Part shown: positions 1,241 through 64,000 of the stretch, in pieces | How positions within the stretch are numbered: the stretch's first letter is position 1 | Layout: every line of letters starts with the position of its first letter | Assembly: GCF_014642855.1 (NCBI RefSeq) | Contig: NZ_BMJB01000001.1 | Location: 3,100,001-3,164,000, forward strand | Source: Edaphobacter acidisoli | GTDB taxonomy: Bacteria; Acidobacteriota; Terriglobia; Terriglobales; Acidobacteriaceae | DNA length: 64,000 nucleotides | Direction: 5' to 3' | Notes under the pieces: model-generated | What the model was told of the DNA's origin: nothing | The model's database searches: none | What the model saw: the letters and a program-made list of their open reading frames with translations, nothing else | Program-made: the position numbers and the translations under genes

Positions 1241-2380
1241 ATGCGAATGTATGTCTACACTCCGCAGTTTTACATCCGCCCGCGCAATACAGATTGGCTC
1301 TACAACCACCTGCTGCCTCGCGTCTCAGAGTTCAATTCTGGCCTGGACGTATACCTGCAGCAGTCCACCTTATGCACGCTCAAGGAAAATTTACGCAAGG
1401 CAGCCGAAATCACCAAAGGGCGCCTGCATCTCCCCCTGCCCAATGCTCTGATGAGCAAGCAGGACTCGATCTTCTCGCGCCGCGATGTCCTTCGCGCAAA
1501 GCCGGACTTCATCTACGGTCATAGCCCTTCCAACATTGACGATGTTCCGGTGGCCTTCAACTGCGGGCCAACCTACCCGGAGGTCCTGCGCGAACTGGGC
1601 GAGTCCGAGGCCTTTATCGCAAGAGATATACGCGTCAAGCAGCGGTGCGCCGCGCGTGCCACGCTCGTCGTGTCCCATTCGCATTCGAATCTGCATAATT
1701 TGATGACCTTGTTCCCGGAGCAGGCAGGCAAGATGCGCTGTCTGCCTTTCTTCCTCCCTCATCTCGAAGCTGTCCCGGAAGAAGCGGTTGCGGCAAAATT
1801 TACCTCGATCGACAGGATTCAATGCCTGTTTGTTGGCCGGGAGGCGCGCAGGAAGGCCTTGCCGGAGGTGCTTCGGGCGTTTCAGGAACTCTCTCAACGA
1901 TTCCCTTCGCGCCTGCGCCTGAAGATTATCACCAGCTTTGCCGATGGTGCCGTAGACGTACCCGCGCATCCAGACATCGAGCTGCTCGGCGAAACGCCCC
2001 GGGACGAGGTGCAGCGTCTGCTTCGGCAGAGCCATTTCCTGCTGGTGCCCAGCCATGTGGAGATGTACGGCTGGATCTATCTGGAGGCCATGGCGGCCGG
2101 CTGTATTCCAGTAGCGGCCTGCGGTCCCAACCAGAAGGAGATTCTTGCCGATGGCCAGGCCGGTCTGCCGACAGGCCCCGACCCGGCTCGCATCCGCGAG
2201 GCGCTGCTGCCCTATCTGCTGCATCCTGAAACACTGCTGCCGCTTGCCTTGTCGGCTGTAAGGCGGTGCAAAAACGAGTATCTCCCCGGGGTCATCGCCA
2301 AACGCTTTCAGGAGATAGGCGAGGAAACAATCTCACTGTTTCAGTCCACAGCCCGGACGAAAAGCTCGAAAGAAGCGTAG
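1241..2380 (+). CDS. Glycosyltransferase family 4 (GT-B fold)
   Basis: This 379-aa protein should transfer a sugar from a nucleotide donor onto a glycan acceptor. The C-terminal half carries the GT4 donor-binding signature: an E-x7-E motif (EMYGWIYLE) followed by AMAAGCIPVA and then GPNQKEIL. The upstream FVGREARRKALPEVLRAF segment is the typical start of the second Rossmann domain. A TTG at 1232 would extend the frame by three residues, but AAGGA at 1226-1230 lies 10 bases before ATG 1241 and only one base before the TTG, so ATG 1241 is preferred. The preceding flippase gene points to exopolysaccharide or LPS synthesis. The sugar and acceptor cannot be told from sequence. Confidence 0.85.
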   Translation: MRMYVYTPQFYIRPRNTDWLYNHLLPRVSEFNSGLDVYLQQSTLCTLKENLRKAAEITKGRLHLPLPNALMSKQDSIFSRRDVLRAKPDFIYGHSPSNIDDVPVAFNCGPTYPEVLRELGESEAFIARDIRVKQRCAARATLVVSHSHSNLHNLMTLFPEQAGKMRCLPFFLPHLEAVPEEAVAAKFTSIDRIQCLFVGREARRKALPEVLRAFQELSQRFPSRLRLKIITSFADGAVDVPAHPDIELLGETPRDEVQRLLRQSHFLLVPSHVEMYGWIYLEAMAAGCIPVAACGPNQKEILADGQAGLPTGPDPARIREALLPYLLHPETLLPLALSAVRRCKNEYLPGVIAKRFQEIGEETISLFQSTARTKSSKEA

Positions 2381-2869
2381 AGCTTGCAAGCTCACTTACA
2401 GTCGGAAATGCCTGTCTACATTTCCTCAGTTTCTCGGCGCCAGAGGAGAAGTACCTTACCTTCCTACATCTGGCCGACGGGTCGCTCAGCGAGGCGGAGC
2501 TGGCAGAGTGTTTCAGAAGACACGCTGTATTCTGTAAATGACTGAATCTGAACAACAATCGCGCACCCGGCCAGGCCGGAAAACGGCGCTCTGGAAGTCG
2601 CGTCACACGGCACCCTCAGCCGGACCGGAGTGCGTCCTTTTTGTTTCAGAAGCGTCAAATGATTGTGGTATCCTGTGGTCTGCTGGGGACGTGTGCCTTC
2701 GAATGCCCCGACCTATGTGTCGTCCGGGCTTGCCATCGCGGTCTCAACCGCACCTGACTCCCTGCCCAATACCGAACCACCCCAGGGGAAATTCCGCCTG
2801 AACGCCGCTGCGTGGCCAGTGGATTGCCCCGAAGTGATCGAAGTTCCCATTTGAGGAGAGCGCACAGCC
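2381..2869. other. Intergenic region upstream of rpoD
   Basis: This 489-bp gap holds only short frames without recognisable products (for example 2266-2541 and 2538-2801 on the plus strand). It presumably holds the rpoD promoter and leader. I see no convincing TTGACA/TATAAT pair and no terminator for the glycosyltransferase gene. Confidence 0.5.
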
Positions 2870-4576
<1,707 letters not shown>

Positions 4577-11377: not shown

Positions 11378-12190
11378 ATGGATGCGCCCCTCCTTGAAGT
11401 CAGCAATCTGAGCATCGCCTTTGGCACACACCCAGCCGTCCAGGGCATCTCCTTCCACATTGCACCCGGAGAAACCCTCGGTCTGGTCGGCGAATCCGGC
11501 AGCGGCAAGTCCGCCACATCGCTGGCCCTGCTGCGCCTCCTGCCCTCCATCGCGCACGTCACCGGCAGCATTCAATTTGCAGGCGAAGAACTCCTCGCGC
11601 TTCCGGAAGAAACCATGCGCCGCCATCGCGGTCGCAGTCTCGCCATGATCTTTCAGGAGCCAATGACCGCGCTCAACCCTGTCATGCCCATCGGCCGCCA
11701 GATCGCCGAAGCCATCGAGGCCCACCACCCCGAGCTGCCCCGCAAAGCCGTCAAAGACCGGGTCATCGCCGCCATGCACGAGGTGGCCCTCCCCGACCCC
11801 GCGCTTCGCCTCAACGATTACCCCCACCAGTTCTCCGGAGGCCAGCGCCAGCGCATCCTCATCGCCCAGGCGCTCGTCAACCGCCCACGTCTGCTCATCG
11901 CCGACGAGCCCACCACCGCCCTCGACGTCACCGTCCAGGCGCAGATTCTGCGTCTCCTCAACGATCTCCGCCGCACCCACAACCTCTCCATGCTCTTCAT
12001 CTCGCACGATCTCGCCGTCGTCGCCCAGGTCGCCGACCGTGTCGCGGTCATGCATCATGGCCAGATCGTCGAGCAGGCCCCGACCCTCCAGCTCTTCCGC
12101 AACCCGCAGCATCCCTACACCCGCCGCCTGCTCGCCTCAGCCCCCACCATGCAAACCGACCGCACCCAGCCGCTCGCTACGCTCAAATAA
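11378..12190 (+). CDS. ABC transporter ATP-binding protein, DppD/OppD type
   Basis: The 270-aa ATPase has Walker A GESGSGKS (38-45), the Q-loop [11 protein letters not shown] typical of peptide/nickel importers, signature FSGGQRQR (about 152), Walker B LLIADEP (about 171) and switch ISHDLA (about 207). The C-terminal [12 protein letters not shown] matches the oligopeptide-binding OppC-type tail of DppD/OppD proteins. These normally work with a second ATPase, two permeases and a binding protein; none is nearby, so this is an orphan subunit. The frame is open far upstream (to 9767), but that stretch lies antisense to the secreted protein gene. ATG 11378 begins the conserved domain. Confidence 0.88.
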
Positions 12191-12319
12191 CTGGTCCGCG
12201 CCGCATTTTCCAGAACAAAACTTTATAAATCAGCGATTTGCTGAAAGCACTCTTACCCCAATCCTTCCTCCGATTCCTGATTCCAGATAGACTGAAAAGA
12301 CCCGCCAGCCTCAACCACC

Positions 12320-13072
12320 ATGCGCGCCCTCATCCTGTCTGACATTCACGGAAACCTCGAAGCCCTCACTGCCGTTTTAGCCGCAGCTCAGCCCTTCGAC
12401 GCGCTCTGGAACCTCGGCGACGTAGTCGGTTACGGCGCCAGCCCCAACGAAGTCATCGACCTCGTTCGTCCGCTGGCCGAGCTTACCGTCCGGGGCAACC
12501 ACGACCGCGTCTGTTGCGGCCTCACCTCCGCGCTCGGCTTCAACCCCGTCGCCCGCGCCGCCGCCCTCTGGACCAACCGCGCACTCACCCCCGAAAATCT
12601 CGCCTGGCTCCGCGCAATCCCGCAGGGTCCCTTGCAGCCGGAACACCCCGGCATCACCTGTGCGCACGGCTCGCCGCTCAACGAAGACCAGTACATCCTC
12701 TCCATGCGCGACGCCTGGGCGCCACTCCAGCAGATGCCCACACCCATCACCTTCTTCGGCCACACCCACCTGCAGGGAGGCTTCGCCCAGCGCGGCCACG
12801 ACTGGCAGGAGATCAAGCCGCAATACCCCACCCGCGACAACGCCGAATCCGTCGCGATGGCCATCGCGCCCGGCATGCGCTACCTCATCAACCCCGGCTC
12901 CGTCGGCCAGCCCCGCGACTGCGACTGGCGCGCCGCCTTCGCCATCTACTCCAGCGACTCGAACGAGATCATCTACCACCGCGTTCCCTACGACATCACC
13001 GCTGCGCAGGGACGCATCCTCCTCGCCGGTCTACCCGAACGCCTCGCCTCGCGCCTCCGCGAAGGCCGCTGA
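12320..13072 (+). CDS. Calcineurin-like metallophosphoesterase (YfcE/MJ0936-like)
   Basis: The 250-aa hydrolase has the metal-binding motifs of the class: SDIHGN (D8, H10), NLGDVVGYG (D34), RGNHD near 60, CAHGSP, and FGHTH (about 150). It should bind two divalent metals and cleave phosphoester bonds. The substrate could be a nucleotide, a cyclic nucleotide or a phosphoprotein, and is not evident. It is cytoplasmic, with no signal peptide. It stands alone: 129 bases after the ABC ATPase and convergent with the haem operon. Confidence 0.85.
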   Translation: MRALILSDIHGNLEALTAVLAAAQPFDALWNLGDVVGYGASPNEVIDLVRPLAELTVRGNHDRVCCGLTSALGFNPVARAAALWTNRALTPENLAWLRAIPQGPLQPEHPGITCAHGSPLNEDQYILSMRDAWAPLQQMPTPITFFGHTHLQGGFAQRGHDWQEIKPQYPTRDNAESVAMAIAPGMRYLINPGSVGQPRDCDWRAAFAIYSSDSNEIIYHRVPYDITAAQGRILLAGLPERLASRLREGR

Positions 13073-54808: not shown

Positions 54809-54885
54809 AGGCGCGTAGCTCAGTTGGTTAGAGCGCTACCTTGACACGGTAGAGGTCAGGAGTTCGAGTCTCCTCGTGCCTACCA
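54809..54885 (+). tRNA. tRNA-Val (anticodon GAC)
   Basis: Acceptor aggcgcg/cgtgcct, anticodon GAC at 54843-54845 in stem ctacc/ggtag, T-loop agttcgagtct, discriminator A and encoded CCA are all present. Its 3' end is the insertion point of the mobile element that follows. Confidence 0.96.
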
Positions 54886-54982
54886 TATCCTCAACAACTT
54901 ACGCTCTCTCCCATACCCCAAAAGGGCACAAAAGGACACAGAGAGGGCACGGAATCTACTGCGTGTTGTGGTGTGTACCTTC

Positions 54983-55204
54983 TCACGCCACAACCTCCTG
55001 CAAACGCTGACGACCGAAGAGCACATCCACGACTTTGCTCTGCGCCTCCCGCTTCTTTTCCATTCGCGGGTGCGTATAGATCTCCATCGTGGTCGAGAGC
55101 TTCGCGTGACGCATCAGTTCCTGCACCACCTTCACGTCGTTGCCATGCTCGGCCAACATCGTGCTGTAGGTATGCCGGGTTGCTGAGCTTGCGCTCGCCA
55201 TCAT
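54983..55204 (-). pseudogene. Tyrosine recombinase (integrase), C-terminal remnant
   Basis: Up to 73 codons on the minus strand encode only the catalytic end of a phage/ICE-type tyrosine integrase. RHTYSTMLAEHGNDVKVVQE, LMRHAK (active-site His) and MEIYTH (nucleophile Tyr) are present, followed by a charged tail. Everything before about position 55180, including the N-terminal arm-binding and core domains and the first catalytic Arg, is absent. Integrases of such elements are normally next to the attachment tRNA, as here. The remaining codons could not form an active enzyme. Confidence 0.8.
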
Positions 55205-55577
55205 GCAGGCATTCGTCTTCGCGGTGATCGCCTACGGCTATGTTGCCACTGCCGTGTGTGTCCTCGTCGGCCCAGTCTTCATCCCGTGGTTCATCGTGCC
55301 CAAGATGGACTGGCTCTTCTGGGGATGGTTGAAAGCCTTCATCGGCTTCAGTTTCTACCAGGTCGTAGCAAGCGCCTTCATCTTCGTCTTCTCGAAGGTC
55401 GTCATCGGGATGTTCCATGTGATCGGGACGCTCAGTCTTGCGAATATCGTGACGGTGCTGCCGGCCCTCCTCACTCTGGCCTTCGTCTGCGTCTACGGCC
55501 TGCACAAGATACCCGAACTGACCGGCTCCATCCTCGGTGGCCGCGCCGGGACGTGGGTCGGCCTCAACAAGGAGTAA
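55203..55577 (+). pseudogene. TrbL/VirB6-like conjugal transfer protein, 5'-truncated
   Basis: 124 codons match the C-terminal membrane core of TrbL/VirB6, with segments such as AVCVLVGPVFIPWFIVPKMD, WLFWGWLKAFIGFSFYQVVA and three or four helices. Full proteins are several times longer. There is no ribosome site before the ATG at 55203, and an in-frame stop sits 16 bases earlier. The start of the homology coincides with the break in the integrase on the other strand. It is followed by TrbF in the same direction, as in intact T4SS loci. Confidence 0.7.
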
Positions 55578-55582
55578 CCGCG

Positions 55583-56260
55583 ATGCACAAGACTTCCTAT
55601 TCGACGACCGAGGCAGGCCACAGGTTCCTTGAACTCTATGCCGAGCCTGTCGTCACCAACAACTATCTCAAGGTCGCGCTGCTCGTGCTCGCTGTTGTCG
55701 CGCTCACTGCGCTGGCTCTACTCTACCGGGCACAGACCGCTGCCTCACGGTTGAAGCCGCTCGTCATCGCGGTCTCGGACATCGGGCGTGGACAGGTGAT
55801 GAACTACGACGACCTCTCAAAGGTCCCTACGGAGCGTGTGAGCAAGTATTACCTCGCCCGCTGGGCGCAGCTCTACTACGGACGCAATCACGCCACTTTG
55901 CAGCGCGACTTCGCCGAGTCGCTCAACTTCTTCTCGGACCCGTTGCAGTCGGCGACGCTGGCCCGCGTCAACAAGGCGAAGACGCTCGAGACCTTCCTGC
56001 TTGATCCCAGCGCACCCAACGTGGACATCGAGATCAGGGCTGTTGTGCTCGACGATACACGCCAGGCCCCATACCGCGCTCATATCGAGTTCGAGAAGGT
56101 CATGTATTCGCCCGGCGACCAGCAGGAGCAGAACCGCGAACGCTGGGCCGCAAATGTCATCTTCAGCTTCCGCGGCGAGGTTCCCAACCAGATGCTGCTC
56201 ACCAACCCTCTGGGCCTTGTCATCAGCTACGTCCACGAAGACCAGGCGTTCGGGAGTTAA
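55583..56260 (+). CDS. TrbF/VirB8-like type IV secretion protein
   Basis: The 225-aa protein has a short N-terminal tail, one membrane helix (ALLVLAVVALTALALLYRA, about 30-50) and a periplasmic NTF2-like domain containing YYLARWAQLYYGRN and VIFSFRGEVPNQMLLTNPLG. This is the VirB8/TrbF plan, an inner-membrane assembly hub of the conjugation apparatus. AAGGAG eight bases before ATG 55583 sets the start; the longer frame from 55256 is not real. Confidence 0.75.
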   Translation: MHKTSYSTTEAGHRFLELYAEPVVTNNYLKVALLVLAVVALTALALLYRAQTAASRLKPLVIAVSDIGRGQVMNYDDLSKVPTERVSKYYLARWAQLYYGRNHATLQRDFAESLNFFSDPLQSATLARVNKAKTLETFLLDPSAPNVDIEIRAVVLDDTRQAPYRAHIEFEKVMYSPGDQQEQNRERWAANVIFSFRGEVPNQMLLTNPLGLVISYVHEDQAFGS

Positions 56261-56263
56261 GCC

Positions 56264-56650
56264 ATGAAACAGAAGAAGCAACTTCTGCTCTATTGCCCCG
56301 ACCGCGAACTGCTCCCCTCGATGGCCTTTGCGTTGCACCTGCACCCATATGAGGTCACGGCTGTCGACGACAGCCGGAACGCTGCATCGCTCATGATGGC
56401 TGGCAGCGATGAGCTTCTCTGCGGAGTGCTGATTCATACACGGCAGGGCGACCTTTCAGGCAGGTTGATTCACCGCCTGCTCGAATCGGATCTGCACGTT
56501 CCCATCCTGCTGGTGGACCGGGCGGGTGACCTCGCACCCGTCCGCTACGCGGACATCGTGCTCTATGGCCGCAACACCTCGATGGCCTACATCCTCGCCG
56601 CGCTCAACGTGCTTTGCGCGCGGAAGCGCGGGCCACGGGGTGCGGCATGA
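56264..56650 (+). CDS. Receiver-fold-like protein lacking a phosphorylation site (hypothetical)
   Basis: The 128-aa protein has an alternating beta/alpha pattern like a CheY receiver. It begins with LLLYCPDRELLPSMAFALHL, with AVDDSRNAASLM next, and LHVPILLVDRAGDLAP where a receiver beta-4 would lie. The segment GVLIHTRQGDLS sits where the phospho-acceptor Asp is expected and seems to lack it. The C-terminus is basic. It starts three bases after the TrbF gene, so is cotranscribed with transfer genes. Function unknown; a non-phosphorylated signalling or scaffolding protein is possible. Confidence 0.55.
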   Translation: MKQKKQLLLYCPDRELLPSMAFALHLHPYEVTAVDDSRNAASLMMAGSDELLCGVLIHTRQGDLSGRLIHRLLESDLHVPILLVDRAGDLAPVRYADIVLYGRNTSMAYILAALNVLCARKRGPRGAA

Positions 56651-56664
56651 GGGAGTCGGCCCTT

Positions 56665-56973
56665 TCACGCAGCCAGTTTGAGCCTGGGACGAAGGCCCAG
56701 CCGCGAAGCGATGGTCAGCAGCGTATCAAGCGAAAAGTCTTTCCATTCGCCGCGCTTGATCTTCGAGACGCGCGGCTGCGAGATGCCAAGCTCTCTGGCG
56801 GCTGCGGCCTGTGTCCAGCCGTTCTCCGCGATGCGCTTTTCAATACGGATCATGACCTCGGCGCGCATCTTGAGAATGGCCGCTTGATCTTCATCAAAGC
56901 CGAGATCCAGAAAGATGTTACTGCTGCCTTTGGTGATTTTGGTGTCGTTCCAACGGGAATCGGTCTTCTTCAT
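56665..56973 (-). CDS. XRE/HigA-type antitoxin
   Basis: The 102-aa protein has a conserved N-terminal segment (SSNIFLDLGFDEDQAA, MRAEVMIRIEKRIAENGWTQ) and a helix-turn-helix: QAAAARELGISQPRVSKIKR, then DTLLTIASRLGL. This matches HigA2-like antitoxins, which neutralise the toxin and repress the operon. It starts three bases after the toxin gene, the inverted (toxin-first) order typical of HigBA-like pairs. Confidence 0.88.
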   Translation of the reverse strand: MKKTDSRWNDTKITKGSSNIFLDLGFDEDQAAILKMRAEVMIRIEKRIAENGWTQAAAARELGISQPRVSKIKRGEWKDFSLDTLLTIASRLGLRPRLKLAA

Positions 56974-56976
56974 CCG

Positions 56977-57297
56977 TCATTCTCCAATCAGCTTGTATCG
57001 CCGTTTCGCAAGCTCCATATCGCTCTGGCTCGTCTTCTGAGTCTTCTTCTCGAAGGCGTGCAGCACATAAACAGCGTTCGCAAACTTCGCAACGTAAATC
57101 ACGCGCCAGGCACCATTGAGGCGGACCCGGATTTCATAGGCGCCTCTGCCCACGTCCTTCAAGGGCTTGAAGTCAACCGGCATCAGCCCATGCTGCACGC
57201 GGAGAAGCTCATCGCCAAGCGATTTGCGGACCTCTACTGGAAACTCCCGCAGGTCGTCCCGACTGCTGCCGATGAAGAAAATGGGCTTCATCTCCAT
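56977..57297 (-). CDS. RelE/HigB-like (Gp49 family) toxin
   Basis: The 106-aa product has the phage-Gp49/RelE pattern: FIGSSRDDLREFPVEVRKSL, LKDVGRGAYEIRVRLNGAWR, VIYVAKFANAVYVLHAFEKK and TQKTSQSDMELAKRRY. It would be a ribosome-dependent mRNA endonuclease inhibiting translation unless bound by the HTH antitoxin. Such pairs stabilise mobile elements. A TGATATAAT sequence lies only seven bases before the ATG, so the message may be leaderless. Confidence 0.9.
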   Translation of the reverse strand: MEMKPIFFIGSSRDDLREFPVEVRKSLGDELLRVQHGLMPVDFKPLKDVGRGAYEIRVRLNGAWRVIYVAKFANAVYVLHAFEKKTQKTSQSDMELAKRRYKLIGE

Positions 57298-57377: not shown

Positions 57378-58946
57378 ATGAGATATCTCTCCGTGTGTTC
57401 CGGCATCGAAGCCGTCTCGGTTGCGTGGCAACCTCTCGGCTGGCAGCCTGCCATGTTCGCCGAGATCGATCCGTTCTGCTGCTGGCTTCTGCGCTCGCGC
57501 TACCGCGCATCGCGGCCTGTGTTTATGCCCAGTCCGCATGATGCACCGGACAGGAAAGAGGCGAAACACCGTGCAGCAGCCATTCGCAACATCGTTGCTC
57601 TGCCCGCCACTGGCGACATCATCAACGCAGGCGATTTCATGAAGATAGGCAAAGACGATGTGGGAGCAATCGACCTTCTGGCCGGAGGAACACCTTGCCA
57701 GTCTTTCTCCGTCGCCGGTAAGCGAGCGGGACTGGATGATCCGCGTGGCAACCTCACCATCGAGTTTGCTCGACTTGCTGATCGCTTACGGCCCTCGTGG
57801 CTGGTGTGGGAGAACGTCCCCGGTGTCCTGTCGCTTGATGGAGGACGGACATTTGGAGCCTTCCTCGGGCTATTGGTCCAACTCGGGTATGGGATCGCCT
57901 ACCGAGTTCTGGACGCACAATTCTTCGGAGTACCCCAGCGACGGCGTCGCGTCTTCGTTATCGGACATTCTGGAGGATGGCGAGGCCCCGCAGCGGTATT
58001 GCTTGAGTGGGCGTGCCTGTCGGGGTATCCTCCGCCGCGCCGCAAAGCGCGGCAAGACCTTGCCCCCACCCTTAGCACACGCGCTTATGGTGGTGGCGGG
58101 ACAGAAACCGACTTCGACCTCGACGGCGGCCTGATTGCTTCGACTGAAAACGTCTCACGCTGTCTGAACGCCGGTGGCATGGGCAGGCAGGATTTTGAGA
58201 CGGAAACCTTCATTGCCCATACACTCTGCTCCGATGGCTTCGATGCCTCGGAAGACGGCACCGGACGCGGCGTGCCGATGGTCCCCATCGCCATCAACAT
58301 TGCGCACACGAAGTCGAATGGCTCCGGCTTCTCAGACAATATCGCGCATACGCTGGAGAGCGGCAGCGGCGCTCAGGCTATTGCTTTTTCCTCGAAGGAT
58401 TACGGGATGGATGCCGATGATGTCGCGCCCACGCTGCGCGGCATGGGACATCATCTCAGCCACCCGAACGGTGGCGGACAGATCGCCATCGCGTTTGCGC
58501 AGAACCAGGAAGGCGATGTTCGCAGCAGCGGCGTGATGCACTCGCTGGGGACCAACGCGAACGCAACCAGCCGCAATGCCGCCAATGTCGTCGTCTCCTG
58601 GACACAGGAACTCGCCGCATCGACCAATCTCGCCGGGCCCCTTCAGCGTGGCGGTGAAGGGGGACGCGCCGATGGAGCGATGGCAGCACAGATGGCCGTG
58701 CGCCGACTGACGCCACGCGAGTGCGAGCGCCTGCAGGGATTTCCTGACGACTACACCCTGGTCGAGTATCGCGGCAGGCTCGCCGCCGACGGCCCCCGCT
58801 ACAAAGCTCTCCGATGGCTGTTCCTGTCATGCGCTGGCTGGGACAACGCATCGCTCAAGTCGATGCCATCCTTCGTGAACACGGCGCGAGGTTTACGCCT
58901 TGAACTGCTATTCCACGATACCGGTGCTTTTCATGCGAAAGAGTGA
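57378..58946 (+). CDS. dcm: DNA cytosine-5 methyltransferase with frameshifted C-terminus (probable pseudogene)
   Basis: The 522-codon frame carries C5-MTase motifs in order: motif I (YLSVCSGIEAVSVAWQPLGW), motif IV GGTPCQSFSVAGKR (catalytic Cys 107), motif VI WENVPGVLS, motif VIII QRRRRVFVIGH, a long target-recognition region, and motif IX RRLTPRECERLQGFPDDY. After GPRYKAL, motif X (GNSMAVP) is missing. The frame +2 from 58814 encodes MAVPVMRWLGQRIAQVDAIL and ends at 58903, the normal C-terminus. About seven bases are therefore missing near 58812, and an unrelated ~40-residue tail is read. Since motif X helps bind AdoMet, activity is doubtful. Confidence 0.85.
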   Translation: MRYLSVCSGIEAVSVAWQPLGWQPAMFAEIDPFCCWLLRSRYRASRPVFMPSPHDAPDRKEAKHRAAAIRNIVALPATGDIINAGDFMKIGKDDVGAIDLLAGGTPCQSFSVAGKRAGLDDPRGNLTIEFARLADRLRPSWLVWENVPGVLSLDGGRTFGAFLGLLVQLGYGIAYRVLDAQFFGVPQRRRRVFVIGHSGGWRGPAAVLLEWACLSGYPPPRRKARQDLAPTLSTRAYGGGGTETDFDLDGGLIASTENVSRCLNAGGMGRQDFETETFIAHTLCSDGFDASEDGTGRGVPMVPIAINIAHTKSNGSGFSDNIAHTLESGSGAQAIAFSSKDYGMDADDVAPTLRGMGHHLSHPNGGGQIAIAFAQNQEGDVRSSGVMHSLGTNANATSRNAANVVVSWTQELAASTNLAGPLQRGGEGGRADGAMAAQMAVRRLTPRECERLQGFPDDYTLVEYRGRLAADGPRYKALRWLFLSCAGWDNASLKSMPSFVNTARGLRLELLFHDTGAFHAKE

Positions 58947-59483
58947 CGGCTTTGACCTTTATGCCTTCAACATCCTCTCAACACATCGAGCGTGCAGCGC
59001 ATCCTCCCACTCCGTCGCCCGCGTTCTACTCTTTGCAGCGCCGGTAGATCAGTCACGATGCAGCAGGCTGTGTGATGTACCCACTTCAGCCCGTCCGCAC
59101 CGGATAGAAGGCACGACGGACTGGGCGACTTCACCGGTGCACAGGCTACGAACCAGGAGCATCCTTCCCCGCCATCTTCAGTCGGGTGTTTCCATCGAGC
59201 GCCATCCCCCCGGATTTTCCCATGTCTCACTCGGTCACTCGCTCGGTGCTTCTCCCGCGCCCGGCGGCACTTGCCGTTTTGCTTCGCGCTACCGCGCGCC
59301 CTTCGGGTCTGGGTTTCCAAAGAAAAATCTCCCTGCGGCTACGGCCCAAAGAACGGGCGAGATTTTTCTTCGGAGCCTCCGCAGAAAGCACGTCTGCGGC
59401 CTTGGGAGCGGGGCACACTCGCGTCACTTCGTGCAGGAGTGTCCCGAGTAAGCGCAGGGCAAATCCAAACAGGAGATACAGCA
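58947..59483. other. Intergenic region with 12-bp inverted repeat upstream of ssb
   Basis: No credible gene is seen; the open frame 58900-59451 has no recognisable product. aagaaaaatctc (59320-59331) and gagatttttctt (59359-59370) form a perfect 12-bp stem with a 27-base loop, which could be a terminator, attenuator or protein site. Confidence 0.5.
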
Positions 59484-59891
59484 ATGGCACTCTATACCAA
59501 CACCGTCACCGTCAAAGGCTTTTTAGGGAAGGACGCCGAGTCCTTCCCTACCCGCACCCAGAAGACGTTCGTCGTCCTGTCGCTTGCTACCAAGTCCGGC
59601 TACAAGGACCAGCAGAAGAACGAGTGGGTGAACCATACTGAATGGCACCGCATCGTGGCTTTCGGCAAGCCCGCTGACTACGCGAGGAGCCTGAAGAAGG
59701 GCGACTACGTGGAAGTTGAAGGCGAGCTGCACTCGACCCAGTATGAGAAGGAAGTCGGCCAGGGCAAGAACAAGGTCAAGGTCGCCTTCCGGGATAAGGA
59801 GATTCGCGCCAGCATCGTAAAGAAGCTGGCAGAGCCGGCCAAGAACGAGAACCTCGACGCCGAGCCCATTACCGAGGATGATGCCGCGTAA
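59484..59891 (+). CDS. ssb: Single-stranded DNA-binding protein
   Basis: The 135-aa OB-fold protein has the SSB N-terminus (TNTVTVKGFLGKDAESFPTR), KNEWVNHTEWHRIVAFGKPA, and KGDYVEVEGELHSTQYEK, then an acidic end (EPITEDDAA). The acidic tip differs from the usual DDDIPF partner-binding tail. AGGAG eight bases before ATG 59484 defines the start. It is followed by a second SSB-like gene, as is common in conjugative elements that handle single-stranded transfer DNA. Confidence 0.93.
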   Translation: MALYTNTVTVKGFLGKDAESFPTRTQKTFVVLSLATKSGYKDQQKNEWVNHTEWHRIVAFGKPADYARSLKKGDYVEVEGELHSTQYEKEVGQGKNKVKVAFRDKEIRASIVKKLAEPAKNENLDAEPITEDDAA

Positions 59892-60706: not shown

Positions 60707-60989
60707 ACAAAACTCGAGCGGGACGCCTGCGCAGCAGCCGCTCACCGCGGAAGAGAAAGCGCAGTTCATGGATTTTTCAAACGACCATGTGGCTCGCGTC
60801 CGTGCCGCCAAAACAGCCGCGCAGAGGGAGATGGAGTCGTTCGGCGATGTCTCGGAATATGACGTCACGATCCTTCATGGGCAACTGAAAGAAGAGCCTG
60901 TGGTCCCCACGCAGCGCCTCTGGATTTTAAGGATGACGTTTTCGACGGGCCGGGAGAGCCGGACTGATGCGGCTCGATATTCCTCATGA
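60654..60989 (+). CDS. Small hypothetical protein, GTG start overlapping previous gene
   Basis: AGGAG seven bases before GTG 60654 suggests a real start within the end of the membrane-protein gene (53-base overlap). The 111-aa product is basic and Ser-rich for 35 residues. A helical acidic segment follows (LTAEEKAQFMDFSNDHVARV, AAKTAAQREMESFGDVSEYD), with an end overlapping the next gene by 23 bases. The middle is protein-like. Function unknown. Confidence 0.5.
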   Translation: MDTRNSQKRSPRSSAKSKQNSSGTPAQQPLTAEEKAQFMDFSNDHVARVRAAKTAAQREMESFGDVSEYDVTILHGQLKEEPVVPTQRLWILRMTFSTGRESRTDAARYSS

Positions 60990-62004
60990 TGTGCCTCAGC
61001 GTCGGGAGCCTGAACCGCCACAGCCCGATGTTCCGCTGAAACCTTCTCCCGTCGAGGCAAGACACGAAGCTCTGGCCGCACGCGCCGCCGACCGCCGTCC
61101 CATGCCCCAGGCGCAGCAGCATCGTTCCCGCCATCCCGAGCGGGCATCCGATCAAGGACGTCGCGCGCTTCCAGTAGATAGTCTGAGAGACCAACGCCCG
61201 CGCCGGCAGACATTAGCGCCCGAAGCTATCGGGCTTTCTTTACGCGAAGAAGAACGCAGGGTGCTGGCTGATGTGGGCCGCTTCCGCGTCGTCGCTACCC
61301 GCGATCTTGCCGCGACCATCTATGACAACCGCCAGTCGCGCATGGAACGCGACCTCGCCTTCCTGCGCGAGAAAGGACTCATTCAGGTGGATTCTGTGAA
61401 TGCCCGCCGCGACGGGCGCGGCGGCAGTGTCGAGCGTATTGAGGTTGTCACGCTCACCAAAGGTGGCCAATCGCTGGCACGCATGACGAGCGATCTGCCG
61501 CGTGACCAGAAACTCTATGCCGGGATGGTCAAGCCGCGCGAGGTGGAACATGACACGCAGATTTATCGCGCTTTTCGCAAGGAAGCCGAGCGCATCGAGC
61601 GGAAAGGCGGCACGAACCTCCGCGTCCAGCTTGATTTTGAACTGAAATCGCAGATTCAGAAGGCCATTTACGTCGAGCGCAAGGTCAACCCGGAACGCGG
61701 CATGGATGAGATTAAGCAGCAGGTGGCCAGACAGTTTGATCTGCCCTTCGTGGATGGCGGCATCCAGATTCCCGATGCACGGATTGAGTATGAATTACCG
61801 CGCAAGGACGATCAGGACAGGGACCATGGTCCGCGCACCGGCCACGAAGACATCGAGGTCCTGACAGCGGCCTACCGCCCCGGCCATCTCCGGCACAAAG
61901 CGCAGGCGGGCTTTCACGTCTATGCCTCAGCTTCCGACCGCGCCACCCTGACCGCGAGGATCGAGGGTGACCATCACCTCATGGACAGGATTCTGGAGCT
62001 GTAA
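60967..62004 (+). CDS. Winged-helix protein of the replication-relaxation type (putative)
   Basis: The 345-aa product has a Pro/Arg-rich disordered N-terminus (about 1-85). A winged helix follows (LSLREEERRVLADVGRFRVV, ATRDLAATIYDNRQSRMERD, FLREKGLIQVDS), then a domain containing KPREVEHDTQIYRAFRKEA and PDARIEYELP. The wHTH plus downstream part resembles the replication-relaxation/plasmid-mobilisation regulator family. It may regulate transfer or processing of the element. Assignment is by pattern only. Confidence 0.6.
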   Translation: MRLDIPHDVPQRREPEPPQPDVPLKPSPVEARHEALAARAADRRPMPQAQQHRSRHPERASDQGRRALPVDSLRDQRPRRQTLAPEAIGLSLREEERRVLADVGRFRVVATRDLAATIYDNRQSRMERDLAFLREKGLIQVDSVNARRDGRGGSVERIEVVTLTKGGQSLARMTSDLPRDQKLYAGMVKPREVEHDTQIYRAFRKEAERIERKGGTNLRVQLDFELKSQIQKAIYVERKVNPERGMDEIKQQVARQFDLPFVDGGIQIPDARIEYELPRKDDQDRDHGPRTGHEDIEVLTAAYRPGHLRHKAQAGFHVYASASDRATLTARIEGDHHLMDRILEL

Positions 62005-62006
62005 CC

Positions 62007-62849
62007 ATGGCCGCCGATCCCATCCCCGCACTTCAATCATTCGGCTACACCGACCGCGAGGCCGCGTTCCTCTACCTGGCCGCCGCCCACTCCGGCTACT
62101 TCCTACGCCGACAGTTCGATTACTTTACCGACCGCAACAAAGGTTCCATCGTTATGCGGTTTCTCGAAAAGGCCCACGCCACTGGCCACATTGAATCCCT
62201 GGACTATAAGCAAGGCTGGCATGTCTATCACATCGTCTCGCGGACGATCTATCGTCTGCTCGGCGATCCCGAGTCGCAGCTCCGGCGCAGAAAGGGGGAC
62301 GCCCATGTGCGTGCCCGGCTTATGGCGCTCGATTACGCACTCGAAAATGAGGACGACCGTTATCTCATCTCCCCGGAAGAGAGGCTCCATTTTCTCGCGG
62401 AGATTCGCGGTATCTCGCCGAGTCTCTTCACCGGTGAAGATGGCGCACTGTATCCGCTGCTGGCATCGTTTCCCATCTCGCTGACAGATCGCACACGGCC
62501 TGCGCGCTCGCCGGTGCGTTTCGCTTTTGTCGATGAAGGGCTTGCCACGGTTGAGAAGTTCCTCCGGTTTCTCTCCGTCACCGGCCCGCTGCTGCGCTCA
62601 GTCGGCAACTTCGAGGTGGCCTATGTGGCCATCTCGGGCACTCACTTTGAGGATGCTGAAGCAACTTTCTGGAGAAAGTTCGCAGACGATCCGCACAGCA
62701 GTCCCAGCTTCTTAGACGACGATTTGCGACCGGTCGTCATGCAACCTCGCGTCCCTTTCCAGCCGCGATTCACCACGCTGCTGCTCGGCTACAGCTATCC
62801 CATTCTCCAGCGAAGTGAGGTCAGGGGTTCCGCAAGGGTTCGCAGTTAA
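62007..62849 (+). CDS. Hypothetical protein with N-terminal winged-helix-like region
   Basis: The 280-aa product begins with a second wHTH-like region (GYTDREAAFLYLAAAHSGYF, RRQFDYFTDRNKGSIVMRFL, EKAHATGHIESL) and continues with a mixed alpha/beta domain ending in RFTTLLLGYSYPILQRSEV. It starts two bases after the preceding gene, which has a similar N-terminal plan, so the two may act together. I do not recognise a named family. Confidence 0.6.
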   Translation: MAADPIPALQSFGYTDREAAFLYLAAAHSGYFLRRQFDYFTDRNKGSIVMRFLEKAHATGHIESLDYKQGWHVYHIVSRTIYRLLGDPESQLRRRKGDAHVRARLMALDYALENEDDRYLISPEERLHFLAEIRGISPSLFTGEDGALYPLLASFPISLTDRTRPARSPVRFAFVDEGLATVEKFLRFLSVTGPLLRSVGNFEVAYVAISGTHFEDAEATFWRKFADDPHSSPSFLDDDLRPVVMQPRVPFQPRFTTLLLGYSYPILQRSEVRGSARVRS

Positions 62850-63459: not shown

Positions 63460-64000
63460 ATGCGCCTTACAGCTTATCTTCAACGCATCCTGCGGCCACT
63501 GATTGAGTACCGGCTGTTGCTCTCTCTGGGGCTCAGTGCAGCCTGTGGCATCGTGCTCCGAAGCCTCTACCCAGTCCATACATCCGATCCGATATTGCGT
63601 CTGATCGAACTCGAACAGCCCCGCATCTTTCATGCCCTGGTCTGGAGCTACAACCTGTTCCTGTACAGCACGCCCTTCCTGCTCTTCTCCATCCTGTTCT
63701 CGCTCGCGTATGTCCATTTCTATGCACCACGACAGAAGGAGGTCTCAGGACCATTGCCGCCCTATCCCGATCCTCTCACCCGCGAGCATCTGTCCCTGGT
63801 CCTTGGCGAACTGCACCATCCGACGAAACCGAAGCCTTCACCCACACCGCAATGGCTCTCCATCCCCGAGCGCGGCCTCTATACCGGTATCTGCATCGTC
63901 GGAGCAACCGGCAGTGGGAAGACCCGGGCCATCCTGCTGCCCGCTATGCGGCAGCTCTTCGCTTACAAGGCTACCGATCCCAGGCAACGTCTCTCCGGCG
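63460..64000 (+). CDS. VirD4/TraG-type coupling protein, 3' truncated by window end
   Basis: About 180 residues are visible. Two N-terminal membrane helices (about 15-35 and 68-90) and a Pro-rich loop with TREHLSLVLGELHHPTKP are followed by Walker A in GATGSGKTRAILLPAM (P-loop at 148-155). This order of two helices and then an ATPase domain matches VirD4/TraG coupling proteins, which link the relaxosome to the type IV secretion channel. The start is ATG 63460, preceded by AGGGG about nine bases upstream. The remainder is outside the window. Confidence 0.9.
   Translation, partial: MRLTAYLQRILRPLIEYRLLLSLGLSAACGIVLRSLYPVHTSDPILRLIELEQPRIFHALVWSYNLFLYSTPFLLFSILFSLAYVHFYAPRQKEVSGPLPPYPDPLTREHLSLVLGELHHPTKPKPSPTPQWLSIPERGLYTGICIVGATGSGKTRAILLPAMRQLFAYKATDPRQRLSG

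Follow-up and report, generated by a model that had tools for sequence, protein, structure and literature searches.

A probable decayed ICE in a tRNA-Val gene, in which truncated integrase and trbL genes are joined

Genes and features at the tRNA-Val locus

The window analysed here is the whole 64,000-nucleotide stretch of DNA (C1:3100001-3164000) from a 4.2-Mb genome in 7 contigs. Positions are counted from its first base, and continue past its end along the same contig. Searches for transfer proteins with tblastn covered 1-111950, which is the window and the remainder of its contig, and nucleotide alignments to relatives with blastn covered 54000-85999. The host is an acidobacterium, most likely one of the Acidobacteriaceae. 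The closest named GTDB relatives of the TrbL remnant described below are two 'Acidobacteriaceae bacterium dw_441' loci (92%), and matches in Edaphobacter, Granulicella and Silvibacterium are at 74-78%.

Table 1 Features at the tRNA-Val(GAC) locus, in window coordinates
Feature	Position	Strand	Basis
tRNA-Val(GAC), integration target	54809..54885	+	ARAGORN
attL: 3' half of tRNA-Val and about 16 bases	54840..54901	+	blastn
Short direct repeats GGGCACAAAA, then by eye GGACACAGAG and GGGCACGGAA; putative integrase arm sites	54924..54954	+	
Tyrosine integrase remnant, last ~64 residues	54983..55178	-	PF00589 profile; alignment to G130 C7 integrase; motif of relatives
Deletion junction (proposed)	55178..55179	.	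Nucleotide and protein alignments to relatives
TrbL/VirB6 remnant, residues 142-273 of 273	55179..55577	+	PF04610, alignment, tblastn
TrbF/VirB8	55583..56260	+	PF04335, E 7e-16; 80% identity to G188 TrbF over 218 residues
Small protein with counterpart in same position in G130 C7, no Pfam match	56264..56650	+	
HTH protein and Gp49-like protein	56665..57297	-	PF13744, PF05973
C5-cytosine DNA methylase	57378..58946	+	PF00145
Single-strand binding protein	59478..59891	+	PF00436
Two element genes, no Pfam or NCBIfam match	60967..62849	+	DNA partly similar in relatives
VirD4 coupling protein, 678 aa, continuing to 65496	63460..64000	+	PF12696, tblastn
VirB11/TrbB ATPase, beyond the window after VirD4	65493-66419		PF00437, tblastn

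Immediately after the tRNA gene, the minus strand encodes only the C-terminal end of a tyrosine integrase, as the original prediction held. The frame at 54983-55186 matches PF00589 at profile positions 132-171 of 172 alone (E 4.9e-10), and the remnant starts at the arginine of a HTFR[HR]T motif, which reads HTFRHT or HTFRRT in relatives. We take it to retain the tyrosine and one arginine, and to be without the first arginine, the lysine and the motif histidine. By profile and alignment, these last residues are all that the element has of an integrase. The original prediction advised looking for a second integrase on the rest of the contig, but there is no further match to the tyrosine-integrase family PF00589 (E ≤ 0.001) on C1 from the remnant to the contig end at 3211950; an apparently intact one is found in a related ICE on contig C5 of the same genome.

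The plus-strand frame that meets the integrase was predicted to be the C-terminal part of a TrbL/VirB6 gene, and this holds. It matches PF04610 (TrbL) at positions 109-212 of 215 with E 2.1e-5 and 24.9 bits, slightly below the curated cut-off of 25.9. The intact 273-aa TrbL of G130 C7 gives a clearer result with tblastn, its residues 142-273 aligning to 55179-55574 with 92% identity (E 8e-78). Of 60 related GTDB loci, 54 have 120 or more open trbL codons upstream of the equivalent of 55179 (two others run into a contig end and four are shorter), against 3 open codons in the window.

The pair at 56665-57297, which we assume to be a HigBA-like toxin-antitoxin, is missing between the flanking genes in all five relatives in which both flanks could be aligned (G130 C7, G130 C4, G066, G070 and G188); C5 and G195 are each without one flank, and so fall outside this count. 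No relaxase was identified in 10 proteins of the element within the window with Pfam or, for 7 of them, with NCBIfam; Pfam also gave none among 20 C5 proteins, which are part of the proteins of that contig. Since no relaxase was recognised among these, one of the two unmatched genes that precede VirD4 could be a relaxase or processing factor.

The original prediction advised searching the rest of the contig for missing trb genes. They were not found there: TrbC/VirB2, VirB4, VirB9, VirB10 and TrbJ of G130 C7 have no tblastn match in 1-111950. The same five queries match C5 and G188, and VirD4, VirB11 and TrbF do match in 1-111950, as does TrbL through residues 142-273 only.

Intact relatives and the origin of the junction

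Related islands with a full integrase and a full trbL do exist, one in G188 and two in G130, both genomes of the same genus. They share a single order: the tRNA, an integrase directed toward it, 10-18 kb of DNA, and then trbL directed away. The ICE of G188 lies at the same tRNA-Val(GAC), with a 410-aa integrase at 1903-3135(-) and a 273-aa TrbL at 11810-12631(+). Its genes run integrase, TrbC, VirB4, VirB9, VirB10, TrbJ-like, TrbL, TrbF, methylase, VirD4 and VirB11; it is collinear with the window downstream, as far as VirB11, and the DNA upstream of its tRNA is 71% similar over 912 bases. The two elements of G130 are beside tRNA-Ala and tRNA-Val(CAC), with 16.3 and 17.7 kb between integrase and trbL and integrase frames of 517 and 428 codons. 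More widely, among the matches listed for pairs on one contig within 50 kb, eight have the layout int(-)...trbL(+) at 9.5-17.7 kb, and four have another layout (judged by eye).

Comparison with these relatives places the break nearly to the base. On the integrase side, nucleotide similarity stops at 55178 for G130 C7 and G070 C29 and at 55138 for G130 C4, and the integrase protein of G188 can be aligned as far as 55177. On the other side, the codon frame and the protein alignment to G130 C7 both put the start of the trbL part at 55179, with nucleotide similarity starting at 55182 (G130 C7), 55189 (G130 C4 and G066), 55194 (G070), 55203 (G188) and 55217 (C5). The integrase and trbL are thus each cut between 55178 and 55179 and joined there, while both are whole in relatives, with 9-18 kb between them. 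This agrees with the earlier claim that both genes are cut at one place, and the position then proposed, about 55180-55200, was right to within about 10-20 bases.

Two fates had been suggested for the intervening DNA, namely loss or inversion, and only the first of these stands. An inversion, with the missing halves located elsewhere in opposite orientation, has in its favour that an inversion end can cut two genes at a single point. In relatives, however, the integrase (-) and trbL (+) are already so oriented, 9.4-17.7 kb apart, and so a plain deletion suffices and no inversion is needed. Furthermore, the genome has 10 PF00589 matches, and an isolated N-terminal half is not among them; nor is an N-terminal half of TrbL found in 1-111950. 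With no orphan halves found in these searches and with the orientation of the relatives, inversion has been rejected, and its probability is negligible.

The DNA absent from the window amounts to 16.3 kb by comparison with G130 C7, 17.7 kb with G130 C4, 9.4 kb with G070 and about 10 kb with G188, a range that derives from relatives alone; the aligned pieces have nucleotide identities of about 68-86%. An ancestral copy of the tRNA-Val element itself was not found among the relatives compared. The equivalent block of G130 C7 encodes the N-terminal part of the integrase, cargo with an N6/N4 methylase among it, TrbC/VirB2, VirB4, TrbI/VirB10, a TrbJ-like protein and half of TrbL. VirB4 and VirB10 are separated by VirB9, identified through its 75% identity to VirB9 of C5.

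It could be argued that the join is an assembly error, and that an intact element exists whose reads were wrongly joined over the missing block. Mobile elements do break assemblies, and this genome is in 7 contigs with a related ICE on one of them. The region 54886-55700 nevertheless has only one other match in the genome, on C5 at 72%, and since this begins at 55217 and continues from there onward, no repeat is shared across the join. A comparison of the 120 bases that surround the junction with the rest of 1-85999 gave 12 nt as the longest shared exact repeat. Moreover, of the 16.3-kb G130 C7 block, the integrase-side portion of 13,334 bases has a single match in this genome, which is the C5 homologue at 73%; for the other 3 kb, protein queries with VirB9, VirB10, TrbJ and the TrbL N-terminal half find nothing in 1-111950. 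No sign of a misjoin was seen, and one is judged to be unlikely.

We conclude with high confidence that a decayed ICE occupies the 3' end of tRNA-Val(GAC), that the window shows its left end, and that an internal deletion in it joined the integrase and trbL. Inspection by eye shows a few bases at most of shared sequence at the join, and no att site or transposon end at 55178; since only a few shared bases are possible there, illegitimate deletion is the likely cause. A single such event would have removed a block of roughly 10 to 18 kb, presumably carrying virB2, virB4, virB9, virB10, a trbJ-like gene, half of virB6 and most of the integrase, and would have left an element of about 20.4 kb with cargo and some of the transfer genes, among them VirB8, VirD4 and VirB11.

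On this basis the element is probably now immobile by itself. The original expectation that it is unable to excise would follow from the loss of the integrase's catalytic half, and because VirB2, VirB4, VirB9 and VirB10 are missing, a mating channel presumably could not be built.

End repeats, tandem elements and the ICE on C5

The original prediction advised a search for an attR copy of the tRNA-Val 3' end, and there are two candidates, both outside the window. The blastn matches to attL are at 75223-75285 (54 of 63 columns identical) and 84277-84334 (47 of 60 columns). In 57,951 bases, GGGCACAAAA with at most one mismatch is found at 54924, 75111, 75132 and 75143 only, the last three lying within 75111-75152, just to the left of the 75223 copy. 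There are likewise four matches in the 53,999 bases preceding the element, so the number is ordinary and only the clustering is telling. Since the repeat is common to both ends, attL at 54840 is paired with attR at 75223, which gives an element of about 20.4 kb, flanked by two att sites with matching end repeats.

The third copy, at 84277, is adjoined by a different repeat, GGGTCCAATA, at 84215. Repeats of this kind accompany other elements: GGGTCCAAT adjoins tRNA-Val in G188 and G195, and GGGTCCAA is found twice near the right end of C5, which 84225-84320 resembles with 79% identity over 96 columns. Given these resemblances, a second and probably older element remnant is taken to lie behind the first, from 75.3 to 84.3 kb, so that two accreted elements, with the decayed ICE first, probably stand in tandem at tRNA-Val. 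The right boundary at 84334 is tentative and was not recovered by synteny: sequence downstream of tRNA-Val from 19 relatives matched only around the integrase remnant within 58 kb. Between the second and third att copies, at 75491-83335 (L004:1492-9336), a protein of 2614 aa with FG-GAP, NHL and Ig-like repeats is encoded.

The three att copies imply several insertions at the site, and they also give some room to the proposal that the junction is merely where two unrelated elements abut, the integrase remnant being part of one and trbL part of a second, inserted into the first. Against this, the repeat beside the integrase remnant is found again at the opposite end of the segment that bears the trb genes, the gene order equals that of single intact elements, and insertion gives no reason to expect a trbL broken in mid-gene. 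As the end repeats pair both ends of one segment, a meeting of unrelated elements at 55178 has been rejected, and we regard it as highly improbable.

The resident tRNA has the T-arm AGGAG/CTCCT, and each of the two distal att copies has GTTGG/CCAAT; such a difference is to be expected if the last element to arrive supplied its own 3' half. Among 20 tRNA-Val(GAC) loci (L068-L087), the 20 best matches when 60 genomes of the genus, this one included, were searched, AGGAG occurs 9 times, AGCGG 10 times and GTTGG once, making three compensatory versions across the genus. This variation may be caused by insertions.

An element is also present at tRNA-Val in G195 (G195:C6:1340000-1359999, L195), with an integrase frame of 428 codons and TrbC. 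VirB4, VirB9, VirB10, TrbJ and TrbL were not found in the 20 kb compared, and the three TrbL matches of that genome are all distant from this tRNA. The retention of integrase frame and TrbC, together with the absence of VirB4 to TrbL in those 20 kb, suggests an independent decay.

The ICE on C5 (71,617 bp) has an integrase, TrbC, VirB4, VirB9-11, TrbL, VirD4 and ParB. The contig reads through its own ends as an apparently intact 378-aa integrase with an adjoining 76-aa gene, presumably excisionase-like. The 3' end of a tRNA-Pro(GGG) at the start of C2 (G000:C2:1-183) serves as its att core, beyond which C2 and C5 each continue for 106 bases to their contig ends, the first base being the sole difference. 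The assembly thus contains both the integrated left end (attL) and a circular or tandem C5 junction, which suggests that this ICE was excised or present in tandem copies in culture. Two further exact copies of the tRNA-Pro att core are found at G000:C4:81066 and 93378, 12.3 kb apart and with no adjoining tRNA gene; they probably mark another accreted, decayed element. Judged by eye, two C5 proteins (1043 and 1232 aa) look like secreted ones. When the C5 VirB4 was compared with plasmids by tblastn there were at least 5000 matches, those listed being all below 60% identity and the best of them 28-29% in Granulicella and Acidisarcina, and no close plasmid relative was among the matches listed.

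The C5 integrase has 41% identity to the tRNA-Val remnant over 49 residues. It is a different integrase with a different target, and so is not expected to excise the tRNA-Val element. Passive movement by a fitting integrase, acting on the retained att sites as in CIMEs, is conceivable, and is possible in principle because att sites are retained on both sides. A more speculative proposal, which we consider rather unlikely, is that the element serves as an accretion partner: helped by its coupling protein, SSB, toxin-antitoxin-like pair and retained att sites, it would be carried along by whichever ICE next enters tRNA-Val, and repeated capture would swap the T-arm between its three versions across the genus.

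Relation to known systems

Decay by internal deletion is a known and ordinary route for such elements, and no general view is changed by this one. Its value is as a clean example of ICE decay, with a breakpoint located to within a base or little more, and with an intact relative at the same tRNA. Among the literature matches listed, none was found on such elements in Acidobacteriaceae.

ICEs in acidobacteria are reported in PMC3158045. Compared with an ICE of the vir/trb type (MPF_T-like), the intact relatives carry VirB2, VirB4, VirB8-11, TrbL and VirD4, while the copy in the window is without most of the channel, including VirB4, and without a complete integrase. It resembles the G188 ICE in its target gene and gene order, and differs in that the integrase and TrbL of G188 are intact and the repeat beside the integrase there is GGGTCCA.

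The closest parallel is the cis-mobilizable element (CIME), as reviewed with tandem accretion in PMC5704250, which cites Pavlovic et al. 2004. The likeness consists in att sites on both sides, the loss of the gene for integration together with a large share of the transfer genes, and a second element in tandem at the same tRNA 3' end. The difference is that decay here is partial: trbF, virD4, virB11 and others remain, and for this reason the tRNA-Val element is not classed as a full CIME. It adds an acidobacterial case to a process that passages of PMC5704250 illustrate with Streptococcus.
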